Source: Helicobacter rodentium ATCC 700285 (GTDB lineage Bacteria; Campylobacterota; Campylobacteria; Campylobacterales; Helicobacteraceae). From it: a DNA stretch of 64,000 nt. The stretch is from the NCBI RefSeq assembly GCF_000687535.1, contig NZ_JHWC01000005.1, forward strand, positions 62,001-126,000. Direction: 5' to 3'. Shown piece after piece: positions 29,766 through 55,756 of the stretch. A model generated the notes under the pieces. It made no database searches. It was not told where the DNA came from and saw nothing but the letters and a program-made list of their open reading frames with translations. The stretch's first letter is position 1, and each line of letters opens with the position of its first letter. Made by a program: the position numbers and the translations under genes.

Positions 29766-29774
29766 GATTCTGTG

Positions 29775-30239
29775 ATGATATTGAAAAACTTTGTGGATTT
29801 AAACGAAATTGAAAAGGTTTTGGTGTTTGGGTGGCGCAATCACCTAAAAATCGCTCCTTTGATGAAAACACAGACGATTACACTAAAAGAACACTTGCAA
29901 TTTATGGAATCCTTGAAGCAGGATTCCACGAAGCAATATTTTTTGGCTTTGCAAAACGATGAAATCTTGGGTGTGCTTTGCTTTATAGACATTCAGCGCG
30001 GAATCTCTTGTGAGTTTGGAATCTATCAAAACCCAGACTTAAAAGGAAATGGAGCGGCATTAATGCAAAAAATGCTACAATACGCACAAGAGACGCTAGG
30101 GGTTAAGAGTATTTATGCTTGTGCATTAAACACGAATCAAAAAGCAATTTCTCTTTACCAAAGATTTGGTTTTCAATTTACAAATAAGGACGCGCAAATG
30201 AGTTATTTCGTATTCTCTGCGGGGGGGGGGGATTTGTAG
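29775..30239 (+). CDS. pseH: PseH-type GNAT N-acetyltransferase, copy 1, with poly-G tract near its 3' end
   Basis: A GNAT protein of about 154 aa that by family acetylates the 4-amino group of UDP-4-amino-4,6-dideoxy-AltNAc in pseudaminic acid synthesis. Signatures: VFGWRNHLKIAPLM (the WRN motif), ITLKEHLQFMESLKQD and the acetyl-CoA loop region EFGIYQNPDLKGNGAALM. In this copy a G11 tract (30221-30231) leads to AGGGDL and a TAG at 30237-30239. With G10 or G13 the frame would run a further 57 residues to a TAG that directly abuts the ATG of the next gene. Which form is native is not known. The catalytic domain precedes the tract, so this form may still be active. The short gap after ccdA suggests read-through. 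Confidence 0.82.
   Translation: MILKNFVDLNEIEKVLVFGWRNHLKIAPLMKTQTITLKEHLQFMESLKQDSTKQYFLALQNDEILGVLCFIDIQRGISCEFGIYQNPDLKGNGAALMQKMLQYAQETLGVKSIYACALNTNQKAISLYQRFGFQFTNKDAQMSYFVFSAGGGDL
30221..30231 (+). repeat. Poly-G tract, G11
   Basis: Eleven consecutive G in the last codons of pseH copy 1. Slippage here would choose between a stop after AGGGDL and a 57-residue extension. Confidence 0.9.
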
Positions 30240-30405
30240 CCTTAAAAGCCACTTTACTCCATTTTTTTACCACACAAACTACAATTTTAGCCATACGGGA
30301 TTCCATACTTTGCAAAATACACAAATCCTTGAAAAATGCGGAATCGCAAAGCTTAAGGGCGATTCCAAGTTCATTTTCAAGCCTGTGCGCGTAAAGGCGG
30401 CATAG
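30232..30405 (+). other. Alternative-frame C-terminal extension of pseH copy 1
   Basis: With one G fewer (or two more) in the preceding tract, this segment reads as 57 codons in frame with pseH. It contains SHFTPFFYHTNYNFSHTGF and KLKGDSKFIFKP and ends at a TAG (30403-30405) immediately before the formyltransferase ATG. The stretch is free of stops only in this frame, its composition resembles coding DNA, and the exact stop-start junction suggests it is, or was, part of the gene. I do not recognise the peptide. Confidence 0.55.
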
Positions 30406-31065
30406 ATGAAAGTGGCGATTCTCACCTCACCAAACCAGTGGTTTATCCCCTATGCTAAGGAGCTAGAGGGCAAGATTCCTAACTCTAGGTTGTATTTCTC
30501 CCATTGTGAAATCCAAGAGCCTTATGATATTGTTTTTATCCTTTCTTACCACCAATTAATCGCGCAAGAATTTTTAGATTTACACACATATAATTGTGTG
30601 ATTCACGCGTCCGCATTGCCTAAGGGCAAGGGTTGGTCGCCTCTGTTTTGGCAGGTACTAGAGGGCAAAGATTCCATTGTTTTTACGCTTTTTAATGCAG
30701 ATGCAAAGGCGGATAATGGCGCAATTTATTTGCAAGAGACTTTGCATTTAAGCGGGTTGGAGCTTTATGAGGAGTTGCGCGAAAAACAAGCTAAGATGTG
30801 TCAAAAGCTATGTTTGGAGTTTTTGGAAAATTTTCCAACTTTAAGCCCAAAGGCGCAGAGTGGAGAGGAGAGCTTTTATCCCAAACGCACACCTAAAGAT
30901 AGTGAGCTAGATATGACTAAAAGTTTGGAATCGCAATTTAATCTCTTAAGGATTGTGAGCAATGAGGAGTTTCCCGCGTTTTTTGTTAAAGATGGCAAGA
31001 AATTTGTGCTAAAAATCTATGCGCACGATTCTGCTGATTCTGTGGGGGGGGGGGGAATAATTTAG
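30406..31065 (+). CDS. Formyltransferase-family enzyme (PseJ-like), fused or separate depending on a poly-G tract
   Basis: 219 aa, with the methionyl-tRNA-formyltransferase-type fold: the NCVIHASALPKGKGWSPL motif (catalytic Asn and His near residues 63-67), the Asp in KADNGAIYLQ near 105, and a small C-terminal domain with KRTPKDSELD and FNLLRIVSNEEFPAFF. It would transfer formyl from N10-formyl-tetrahydrofolate to a sugar amine. Lying between two pseH copies, it could formylate the same amine that PseH acetylates, as PseJ does in the Pse5Ac7Fo pathway. AAAGG at 30393-30397 precedes the ATG. A G12 tract ends it with VGGGGII and TAG; G13 or G10 would fuse it to pseH copy 2. The function is inferred. 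Confidence 0.78.
   Translation: MKVAILTSPNQWFIPYAKELEGKIPNSRLYFSHCEIQEPYDIVFILSYHQLIAQEFLDLHTYNCVIHASALPKGKGWSPLFWQVLEGKDSIVFTLFNADAKADNGAIYLQETLHLSGLELYEELREKQAKMCQKLCLEFLENFPTLSPKAQSGEESFYPKRTPKDSELDMTKSLESQFNLLRIVSNEEFPAFFVKDGKKFVLKIYAHDSADSVGGGGII
31044..31055 (+). repeat. Poly-G tract, G12
   Basis: Twelve G at the end of the PseJ-like gene. G12 gives a stop at 31063-31065. One more G opens the frame into the pseH copy 2 coding region through GGGGNNLEILCLEIE. Confidence 0.9.
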
Positions 31066-31076
31066 AGATTCTTTGC

Positions 31077-31601
31077 TTGGAGATAGAGGATTATGTTGTT
31101 TTAAGTGATTTGGAGAAAAAAGAGGTTTTACAATGGCGCAACCACCCTGAAGTTGCCAAAAACCTCTACAATCAAAAGGAAATTTCACTGCAAGAGCATT
31201 TAGTATTTATAGAATCTTTAAAACAGAATCCTAAAAAACAATATTTTCTTTTGCGATTCTGTGGGGTTGGATTGGGGAGTATTAATTTTACCAAGAAAAA
31301 TAGCAAGGAAGTGGAGTTTGGATTCTTTAGCAATCCAAACTTAAAACTTAGTGGAATCGGACGTGTTTTGGAGCAAGCGAGTTTATTTTATGCCTTTAAT
31401 GTATTGAGGGCTAGAAAGTTGTGCTTAGAGGTTTTTGTAAGTAATAAGCAGGTGATAAACTTGCACAAGAAGTTTGACTTCCAAATTATTGGCAAAAAGG
31501 AAGTCAAGGGTGAAAAAGTGTTGGAGATGTGCAAGGATAACACAAGAATCTTGCCACTTCGTCATTGCGAGAAACACGCAGTGTTTCGTGGCAATCTATA
31601 A
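31077..31601 (+). CDS. pseH: PseH-type GNAT N-acetyltransferase, copy 2 (likely fusion partner of the upstream formyltransferase)
   Basis: 174 aa; the second pseH, with VLQWRNHPEVAKNLYNQ, ISLQEHLVFIESLKQNPKKQ, EFGFFSNPNLKLSGIGRVLEQ and EVFVSNKQVINLHKKFDF. The only start in frame is a TTG at 31077 without a ribosome site, which suggests the domain is made mainly as the C-terminal half of a fusion when the upstream poly-G has 13 or 10 G. The last 16 or so codons (LPLRHCEKHAVFRGNL) are derived from a REP-like hairpin repeat that has replaced the native end. Copies 1 and 2 share the WRNH motif but differ widely elsewhere. Catalytic status unknown. Confidence 0.75.
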   Translation: MEIEDYVVLSDLEKKEVLQWRNHPEVAKNLYNQKEISLQEHLVFIESLKQNPKKQYFLLRFCGVGLGSINFTKKNSKEVEFGFFSNPNLKLSGIGRVLEQASLFYAFNVLRARKLCLEVFVSNKQVINLHKKFDFQIIGKKEVKGEKVLEMCKDNTRILPLRHCEKHAVFRGNL

Positions 31602-31790
31602 ACAAAAGAAGTTGTTAATGGTTGCAATGGAATCACGCAAGAAAGATTAGATTATAGATTGCTTCGGCTTTGCCTCGCAATGACGAAAGTAGTGGGATTG
31701 ACGAAAAACTACCCTTTGTCATTGCGAGATTCTGCGTTAGTAGAATCGTGGCAATCTATAATCTTATCAACTTTTGATTCAACAATGGAA
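31556..31790. repeat. Dispersed REP-like hairpin repeats, block 4
   Basis: Three units. The first has inner stem GAAACAC (31571-31577), loop GCA, GTGTTTC (31581-31587) and overlaps the 3' end of pseH copy 2. The second is the GATTGCTTCGGC...CGCAATGAC type near 31660-31684. The third has inner stem GATTCT (31728-31733)/AGAATC (31742-31747), identical to a unit in block 3. An associated CAATGGAATCTTAAAAGG block follows. Bases 31602-31939 hold no convincing gene. Confidence 0.85.
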
Positions 31791-44616: not shown

Positions 44617-45612
44617 ATGCGAGTTGAAAAGCTACATCCTCATTTGCATAACTCTTATAATGCGTTTTTAGAGTCTATGCCAACGATGCTTTATTATTCT
44701 TTAAATTTTAAAAAACTTCTAGAAGATATTTTACATTGTGATTCGCATTATATGGTTGCTTTAGAGGGGGATAAGGTTTGTGGAATTTTGCCTTTGATGT
44801 CTAAAAGTGGCTCATATGGAGAAGTTTTAAATTCTTTACCATTTTATGGGAGTAATGGAGGGATTATCGCAAATAATATGGAAGCTAGTTTTATTTTAAG
44901 AGAATGCTATAATCAATTTGCTTCTACATTCGCAAGTACAAATTATATTCAAAACCCATTAACAATAGAATCTAGCGGTATTTTGCACGATTTTGTAGAT
45001 AGGCGACTTTCGCAATGGACTAAACTAAAGGATAAAGACGCTTTGTTTGCTTCGTTTGCATCTAGTGCAAGACGCAATATCAAAAAATCTCTTAGGGAGA
45101 ATATAAAAGTTACTACGACAAAAAAGATTGACTTTTTGTATCAAACACATAGAGAAAATATTTTAGCCAACAATGGAATCCCAAAAGAAAAAATATTTTT
45201 TGAAAAAATCTCTAAATGTTTTAAAGATGGAGAGTATAAAATTTATGCGGCATTTTACAATGATAAGCCCATAGCGGCTTTGCTACTCTTTTATTTTGGG
45301 GGAATTGTGGAATACTATACCCCGGCTACCTTGCTAGAGTTTAGGAATCTACAAGCTCTCCCTTTGTTGGTTTATATTGCTATGGTGGATGCTTATGAAA
45401 AAGGTTACCAGTGGTGGAATTGGGGTGGGACTTGGGGAAGTCAGGAAAGTTTATATAGATTTAAAGAAAAATTTGGTGCAATAGAAAAGCATTATAACTA
45501 TTATTGCAAATTGAACAATCAAGATATTTTGAATGCCAAAGCTTCGGAATTATTGAGGGAATATCCTTATTTTTATGTTGTTCCATTTAGTGCTTTAAAG
45601 GAGAGTGAATGA
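44617..45612 (+). CDS. FemAB/GNAT-like acyl- or aminoacyl-transferase
   Basis: 331 aa with the double-GNAT (BioF2/FemAB-like) pattern. The N-terminal half has HYMVALEGDKVCGILPLM, then SARRNIKKSLRENIKV. The C-terminal half has IYAAFYNDKPIAALLLFYFGG, NLQALPLLVYIAMVDAYEKG and WWNWGGTWGSQESLYRFKEKFG, the usual tail of the family. Relatives add amino acids or acyl groups to amines of peptidoglycan or sugars. In this cluster it could acylate an amino sugar. GAGG at 44607-44610 is the ribosome site. ATGA overlap with the next gene. Confidence 0.75.
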   Translation: MRVEKLHPHLHNSYNAFLESMPTMLYYSLNFKKLLEDILHCDSHYMVALEGDKVCGILPLMSKSGSYGEVLNSLPFYGSNGGIIANNMEASFILRECYNQFASTFASTNYIQNPLTIESSGILHDFVDRRLSQWTKLKDKDALFASFASSARRNIKKSLRENIKVTTTKKIDFLYQTHRENILANNGIPKEKIFFEKISKCFKDGEYKIYAAFYNDKPIAALLLFYFGGIVEYYTPATLLEFRNLQALPLLVYIAMVDAYEKGYQWWNWGGTWGSQESLYRFKEKFGAIEKHYNYYCKLNNQDILNAKASELLREYPYFYVVPFSALKESE

Positions 45613-46280
45613 ATATCGCATTTTTTTGCACAGGAGAGGGTTCGTTTTTTAAATTTATTTGGAACAATAAACATTTGTTAAGAATTGATAAAATCATTTT
45701 GTTATCCGATAGGGATTGTGGAGTAATGACATTTTTGCAAGATGAGAAATTGAGCAAAACAATTTATGCTAAAAAATGTGGAGATAAGGAGTTTGAATCA
45801 CAAGCAAAAGAATGGTTTTTAAGTGAAAAAATAGATTATGTTTTTCTGTCTTGCAATAAAATTTTGCGTTACGATTTATTAGAGTGTTATGGGAATAATC
45901 GCAAAAGAATGTTTAATTTTCACCCAAGTCTTTTACCAAAATATATTGGGCTAAATTCCATTCAACAAGCCTTTGATAATCAAGATAAATTCTATGGAGC
46001 AAGCATTCATTATGCAATCAAAGAAGTAGATTGTGGAGAGATTCTTGCGCGTTGCGTGGTAGAAAGAGCAGAAGAGGACTTTGACTCATATCGTCATAGA
46101 TTATTTGTGAATCAAGCGGTTTTGGGGCTAGACTTTATTTATAAATTGTCTTTAGGCAAAACATTTCACACGCTTAAAGGTGTAGCGCAAAAAACAGGAT
46201 TTGATCCGCAATTAACAATTCCAATAGAATCCATAGAATTTTTTAATGTAATGGATTACAAATTACTCCAAATATTTTGA
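45609..46280 (+). CDS. Formyltransferase-family enzyme, second in window
   Basis: 223 aa of the PurN/formyltransferase fold: MNIAFFCTGEGSFFKFI start, MFNFHPSLLPKYIGLN with catalytic Asn and His near residue 98, and the Asp in IKEVDCGEIL near 138. It should use N10-formyl-tetrahydrofolate, probably on an amino sugar. This copy has no poly-G tract, unlike the formyltransferases at 30.4 and 55.0 kb. It starts inside the stop of the FemAB-like gene, so the two are translationally coupled. Confidence 0.8.
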   Translation: MNIAFFCTGEGSFFKFIWNNKHLLRIDKIILLSDRDCGVMTFLQDEKLSKTIYAKKCGDKEFESQAKEWFLSEKIDYVFLSCNKILRYDLLECYGNNRKRMFNFHPSLLPKYIGLNSIQQAFDNQDKFYGASIHYAIKEVDCGEILARCVVERAEEDFDSYRHRLFVNQAVLGLDFIYKLSLGKTFHTLKGVAQKTGFDPQLTIPIESIEFFNVMDYKLLQIF

Positions 46281-55046: not shown

Positions 55047-55756
55047 ATGCAAAGATTCCACAAAATAGGTATTATCACCTATCAAGCACCCCATTTAAAG
55101 ACAGAGCAAGTTTTAAATCAGCTTTTGTCAAACCCTTTGTTAGAATCTGCGGGGGGGGGGGGGATTTTATAGTGTATGCTTTGCCTTTTAAGCCAAAAGA
55201 GGAGCAAGTGGTGTTGTTTGCACATAGACCAAGGCAGAATGAGGCAGTGAGTGCGGAGGAAATTGCGCAGCAATGGAAAATTCCTTATAAAATTTGTGCG
55301 AGTGATACCGAGATTCCAAATGAATGTGATATTTATCTTATCGCAGGGTGTGGAATCGTGTCTCAAGAGTGTTTAAAGGGTAAAAAGATTCTAAACGCAC
55401 ACCCCGGAATCATTCCAAATAGTCGTGGGCTAGATTCGTTTAAATGGGCAATTTTGGAGGATAGACCCTTAGGGGTTACTTTGCATTATATTGATGAAAA
55501 GATAGATTGTGGAGAAATTGTCTCTGTGTCGCCTACACCGATTTATCCAAGCGATACTCTGCATACACTCGCAAGGCGACATTATGAAAACGAAATTGCA
55601 ATGCTTGGTAATTTTGCATTGCATTTATCCAAGCCGCAGAATCCCTTTGCGGGGATTCTACAAACAAAAAGCACTAAAAGAATGAAACCCATAGAGGAAA
55701 AGGAAATGATGAATCATTTTGAAACTTATAAGCAAAAGTGGCAGTCCAATGTGTGA
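55047..55756 (+). CDS. Formyltransferase-family enzyme, third in window, phase-OFF in this copy
   Basis: The gene starts at ATG 55047 ([20 protein letters not shown]) and meets a G13 tract (55151-55163), after which this copy reads IL and stops at TAG 55170-55172. The rest is open in another frame: [19 protein letters not shown], then the catalytic [16 protein letters not shown] and [13 protein letters not shown], to 55756. G14 or G11 restores a protein of about 236 residues. An internal GTG at 55172 might give a truncated product without the N-terminal strand. It lies between WbpB- and WbpD-like genes, so formyl may replace acetyl on the same 3-amino sugar. Confidence 0.82.
55151..55163 (+). 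repeat. Poly-G tract, G13
   Basis: The longest tract in the window. It interrupts the third formyltransferase after 34 codons; G14 or G11 would be ON. Confidence 0.92.

Follow-up and report, generated by a model that had tools for sequence, protein, structure and literature searches.

Flagellin carries pseudaminic acid (Pse), which is required for motility and is recognised by host immunity and by phages. PseJ is a formyltransferase of Anoxybacillus (PDB 6ci2, 6ci4, 6ci5, and 6edk), which we take to act in the Pse pathway at the same step as PseH. For H. pylori PseH, it has been reported that Tyr138 is the general acid, and Arg30, His49, and Phe52 contact the nucleotide or the sugar in a docked model (PMC4363471). 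A passage in a review on phase variation in Campylobacter, which cites Kim et al. 2012, states that tracts at the 3' end of a gene may be polar. There, the non-truncated frame of cj0045 overlaps cj0044, and coupling may rise or translation fall (PMC8355987). The G tract of a C. fetus gene with a formyltransferase domain varies from 9 to 10 between isolates (PMC6321876), and this gene is likened to the formyltransferase described here by domain only. A literature search found no report of 7-N-formyl Pse in Helicobacter or Campylobacter. Here we describe a Helicobacter locus in which G tracts lie between a formyltransferase gene and two genes of the PseH family.

Results

The genome searched was that of a Helicobacter (1.81 Mb, 29 contigs), and the window is the whole stretch of 64,000 nucleotides that was analysed. 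The nearest named relatives are H. pullorum, H. mesocricetorum, and H. valdiviensis. As shown in Table 1, the genes were designated as PseH1, FT, and GNAT2, and the two poly-G tracts as tract A and tract B. A DsbD-like gene precedes PseH1, while a Maf/PseD-like gene and then flagellin lie beyond GNAT2 on the opposite strand. The initial annotation had described a formyltransferase between two PseH-family genes with poly-G at both junctions. The coordinates and the scores above the cut-offs for TIGR03585 and Formyl_trans_N agree with this order, and both tracts were confirmed. Equivalent tracts at the same two junctions in many relatives indicate that neither is due to chance. Both long homopolymers are at frame-critical places, and in-frame as well as out-of-frame alleles were found across species, each represented by one genome, in draft assemblies whose homopolymer lengths can be wrong. 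PseH, tract, and FT occur together in host-associated Helicobacter and Campylobacter; several free-living relatives have FT without tracts and without PseH.

Table 1. Features of the PseH1-FT-GNAT2 locus, in window positions
Feature	Position	Strand	Basis
PseH1, UDP-4-amino-4,6-dideoxy-AltNAc N-acetyltransferase family	29772..30239	+	TIGR03585, 4xpk match, general-acid Tyr
Tract A, G11, 3' end of PseH1	30221..30231	+	Sequence; same place in 18 related loci
Spacer between tract A and FT	30232..30405	+	Frames read per tract length; compared with L065
FT, sugar N-formyltransferase family	30406..31065	+	PF00551, fold search, operon context
Tract B, G12, between FT and GNAT2 frames	31044..31055	+	Sequence; in-frame fusions in relatives
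GNAT2, PseH-family domain	31056..31601	+	TIGR03585; Tyr138 replaced by His; end from dispersed repeat

PseH1 starts with GTG at 29772 (alternative ATG at 29775) and scored 137.3 bits against TIGR03585, the NCBIfam equivalog model of PseH (cut-off 93.1). It matched the C. jejuni PseH structure 4xpk with E=6e-36 and retains the general-acid Tyr, equivalent to Tyr138 of H. pylori PseH. PseH1 and GNAT2 were the only two TIGR03585 matches in the whole genome, and of these two only PseH1 has this Tyr. Comparison with the nearest relative, L065, gave dN 0.04/dS 0.27, indicating purifying selection. The catalytic fold is complete upstream of tract A, and PseH1 is therefore expected to be made at any tract length, with the tail alone differing. 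PseC and PseI are present elsewhere in the genome, and a PseG candidate scored 96.6 bits, below the cut-off of 153.55.

FT scored 33.4 bits against the Pfam family Formyl_trans_N (PF00551; cut-off 26.1) and is also under purifying selection (dN 0.06/dS 0.99 against L065). Its homologues, with 46-89% identity, were found in Helicobacter, Campylobacter, Arcobacter, Sulfurospirillum, Sulfurimonas, and a few more distant genomes. The AlphaFold model (pLDDT 91.8) matched sugar N-formyltransferases in a fold search with E of about 1e-14, the nearest being ArnA, WbkC, VioF, Rv3404c, and FdtF, together with 1zgh. None of 21 aligned FT sequences has the canonical catalytic Asn at its usual place, two residues ahead of the His. 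Only N63, H67, and D103 are invariant in that region, and Asn63 lies four residues before His67. The catalytic domain of FT is complete upstream of tract B.

Tract A and the translation of FT

Tract A is located about 175 bases upstream of FT. As sequenced (G11), the PseH1 frame stops 166 nt before the FT start. With G10 or G13, it ends at a TAG (30403-30405) that abuts the FT ATG (0 nt), and with G9 or G12 it stops 11 nt short of the FT start. The long form of PseH1 has 53-57 extra residues in the window. A direct fusion of PseH1 to FT was rejected, as the TAG precedes the FT ATG and no tract class in the window gives such a product.

We then compared the 18 related loci. The arrangement of the cj0045 type, one tract class with the upstream frame open to the downstream start, was found in 18/18, and in each of them one frame after tract A stays open to a stop at the FT start over spacers of 28-226 nt. 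Shuffled spacers gave 6.9-8.7 loci expected (P=1e-11 at an expected 7.5); with the Shine-Dalgarno region fixed and near-duplicates removed, 14/14 loci were open against 5.2 expected (P=8e-11), and the six long spacers alone were open to the FT start in 6/6 against 0.54 expected (P about 8e-9), all P values that overstate independence as the species of the 18 loci are related. Only 2/18 loci are in the coupled state as sequenced. The spacers of the window and L065 differ by indels of 8 nt and 6 nt, and both open spacer frames of this pair are free of codon-position bias (7/6/8 and 6/8/7); the genes flanking the spacer show a strong third-position bias. Since the frames are open in all loci and this closest pair has no codon-position bias, it is the end of the frame at the FT start that is conserved, and no peptide. 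Conservation of the arrival at the FT start is what would be expected for termination-reinitiation coupling, and the best reading of tract A is a switch that acts on FT by translational coupling.

Tract A could also act through the C-terminal tail of PseH1, by its stability, partners, or activity, with FT translated independently. The tails are open and part-homologous in some pairs, and LLQS-x-KNQDC is common to L038 and L047. A precedent is cj0170 of C. jejuni, whose 3'-end tract gives products differing by up to 22 residues, the shortest being functional (PMC6321876). However, the tails vary from 9 to 79 residues across the loci with little conserved sequence and show no third-position bias in the closest pair, while the conserved feature is the position where the frame ends. 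We regard this explanation as unlikely. A plausible Shine-Dalgarno of its own precedes FT in all 18 loci, and FT may be translated from it without coupling. An RNA hairpin hiding the FT start was also considered and rejected, as the folding z was -0.5, with no special sequestration.

Other G tracts and formyltransferases of the genome were also recorded. CTGC stands just before about 12 of the 43 listed G tracts (often as TTCTGC-Gn-ATTTT), for example at 30221, 44556, 46737, and 55151 of the window. This looks above chance, as if the tracts shared an origin, although no statistic was computed. Seven other tracts have a clear following gene, and five of them (window 43575, 44556, and 62296; L112:6738; L122:5812) have a frame to the next start, while two in L113 do not; the starts were chosen by eye among candidates, with no null for comparison. 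Such frames hint at a general coupling design. Two further Formyl_trans_N genes are present in the window (45609-46280 and 55172-55756). A G13 just upstream of the latter splits its open frame, and this gene looks phase-variable too.

FT in the place of PseH

The place of FT in the Pse operons of relatives was examined. The Sulfurospirillum locus L051 has the order pseB-pseC-pseF-pseG-FT-pseI, with every flanking gene above its NCBIfam cut-off. By genomic context, FT occupies the place of pseH in L051, L052, and L053. A TIGR03585 search of the whole genomes of L051, L053, and L056 gave zero PseH, and that of the L052 genome gave weak GNAT matches, none above the cut-off. The sole above-cut-off PseH of Arcobacter vandammei (L048, 4001-5098) is a domain fused to FT across G9, with the catalytic Tyr kept. 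Because FT replaces PseH in an otherwise complete Pse operon of relatives, it very probably acts at the PseH step and shares the 4-amino group with PseH. The same conclusion had been drawn in the initial annotation, and it is strengthened here by this operon context, by the sugar N-formyltransferase fold, and by the distant relationship of FT to PseJ.

We also considered that FT might use another amine, either a 2-amino group freed by deacetylation (at C5 of Pse) or the amine of some other 4-amino sugar. The lack of the canonical catalytic Asn in FT would fit this, as would the PIG-L-type deacetylase that adjoins FT in L056, L057, and L059 and the PIG-L::PseH fusion with a second formyltransferase in the locus of L038 and L044. 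However, FT of L051, L052, and L053 is in a Pse operon, the neighbouring genes displayed include no deacetylase, and no PseH scores above the cut-off. A PIG-L deacetylase search of the window's genome found none, PIG-L occurs in only 3/19 genus members, and the second formyltransferase would be its better partner. Another amine as the target of FT is therefore improbable in our view.

In L038 (1907-3819) and L044 (2109-3969), this second formyltransferase (PF21553) shares the locus with a fusion of a PIG-L deacetylase and a PseH domain. In the three genus members with PIG-L, it is near FT each time. The PIG-L::PseH fusion is in the same place in all three, and the second formyltransferase was present in both examined. 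This suggests acyl editing of a second amine.

GNAT2 as a probable domain of FT

The GNAT2 frame is open from tract B to 31601, and its best start codon is a TTG. It scored 135.0 bits against TIGR03585 (cut-off 93.1), forms a separate clade, and is under purifying selection (dN 0.09/dS 0.82 against L065). FT and GNAT2 are in one frame across a G tract in six species (L037, L039, L042, L045, L048, and L058), and in L047 they are fused with no tract between them. In the window, L038, L043, and L044, tract B puts them out of frame; one more G or two fewer at tract B of the window would fuse FT to GNAT2. Thus, GNAT2 is apparently translated solely as an FT fusion, being the C-terminal domain of FT in relatives. 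A model of the L037 fusion showed a well-folded GNAT domain after a disordered linker, with modest confidence (mean pLDDT 76.9, pTM 0.47).

The general-acid Tyr is not found in GNAT2, where His replaces Tyr138. His is at this site in the window and in every fused Helicobacter or Campylobacter copy that covers it, and Tyr was found only in Arcobacter L048. The CoA loop of GNAT2 has a two-residue insertion. The equivalents of Arg30, His49, and Phe52 are retained, and GNAT2 may bind the same nucleotide sugar. With the general-acid Tyr lost, GNAT2 is classed as a PseH-related domain and is probably not an ordinary second PseH. The earlier description of two PseH acetyltransferases stands for the family, as both genes are above the TIGR03585 cut-off, but probably not for the second gene as an enzyme of its own, which has neither the general-acid Tyr nor a good start and is a C-terminal FT domain in relatives. 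A dispersed repeat at 31547-31765 containing CGTCATTGCGAG (128 genome copies vs. 0 for the reversed control) supplies the last ~14 residues of GNAT2.

Discussion

We consider it somewhat probable that a constitutive PseH1, a slippage-tuned FT, and an optional GNAT2 domain form a phase-variable module for N-acyl transfer in the pseudaminic acid pathway. The observations are the gene order, the families, the tract positions, the fusions and the substitution of FT for PseH in relatives, and the frame that stays open to the FT start. PseH1 would constantly acetylate the 4-amino group of UDP-4-amino-4,6-dideoxy-AltNAc, and FT would compete for the same amine and formylate it. In the tract A class that opens the PseH1 frame to the FT start, ribosomes would terminate there and re-initiate, raising FT. 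In the other classes they would stop earlier, leaving FT to its own Shine-Dalgarno. Tract B would decide between FT alone and FT fused to GNAT2. Tract A thus plausibly sets the dose of FT via coupling, and tract B plausibly puts GNAT2 on or off FT. What the enzymes catalyse, how strongly and in which direction coupling acts, and true slippage at both tracts are inferred. Cells of one clone would then vary in the ratio of acetyl to formyl at C7 of Pse.

A simpler toggle, in which tract lengths choose N-acetyl or N-formyl Pse by turning PseH or FT on or off, as the initial annotation proposed, draws on the very probable use of one 4-amine by both enzymes and on the tracts at both junctions, but it is very doubtful because both catalytic domains are complete before their tracts and PseH1, the sole copy with the general-acid Tyr, is produced at every tract A length. 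For the same reason, poly-G as a classical on/off switch for PseH1 or FT was rejected.

A bolder form of the tuned module is a two-tract combinatorial acyl controller, which we offer only tentatively. Tract A would set the amount of FT by coupling it to a competing acetyltransferase, and tract B would attach a third acyltransferase domain, one whose catalytic residue has changed, and a single locus would give several N-acyl glycoforms of one flagellar sugar inside a clone. Relatives with PIG-L::PseH would extend this scheme to the other amine of Pse.

If the tuned module is true, a single N-acyl group, and not the presence of the glycan, would be varied by adjusting the balance between two enzymes in competition for one amine. 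The comparative data are the broadest evidence we found for coupling by 3'-end tracts, which has been proposed for one C. jejuni gene pair. The PseH1-tract-FT locus would be a compact system for testing such coupling.

FT and PseJ both belong to the Formyl_trans_N family, and in pse operons FT stands at the PseH step, where PseJ is presumed to act. The two are remote, with E=0.003 for the single sequence and 3e-9 for the profile, and the FT profile matches 1zgh and ArnA ahead of PseJ. Helicobacter FT also differs in its proposed regulation by tracts and in its fusion to a GNAT domain. Compared with the PseH of C. jejuni (4xpk) and H. pylori (4ri1), PseH1 is close to the C. jejuni enzyme and has the same general-acid Tyr. 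However, it has a G tract at its 3' end, and GNAT2 departs from both by the His for Tyr and the longer CoA loop. The nearest regulatory parallel is cj0045/cj0044 of C. jejuni, where the upstream gene likewise carries the tract at its 3' end, its non-truncated frame overlaps the start codon that follows, and coupling has been proposed. That case is one gene pair, whereas the type seen in the window is present in 18 species loci, and its enzymes likely compete for one substrate. Coupling by a 3'-end tract has thus been proposed before. New here are the supporting comparison across loci and the proposed use of such coupling between two enzymes that likely compete for one amine.
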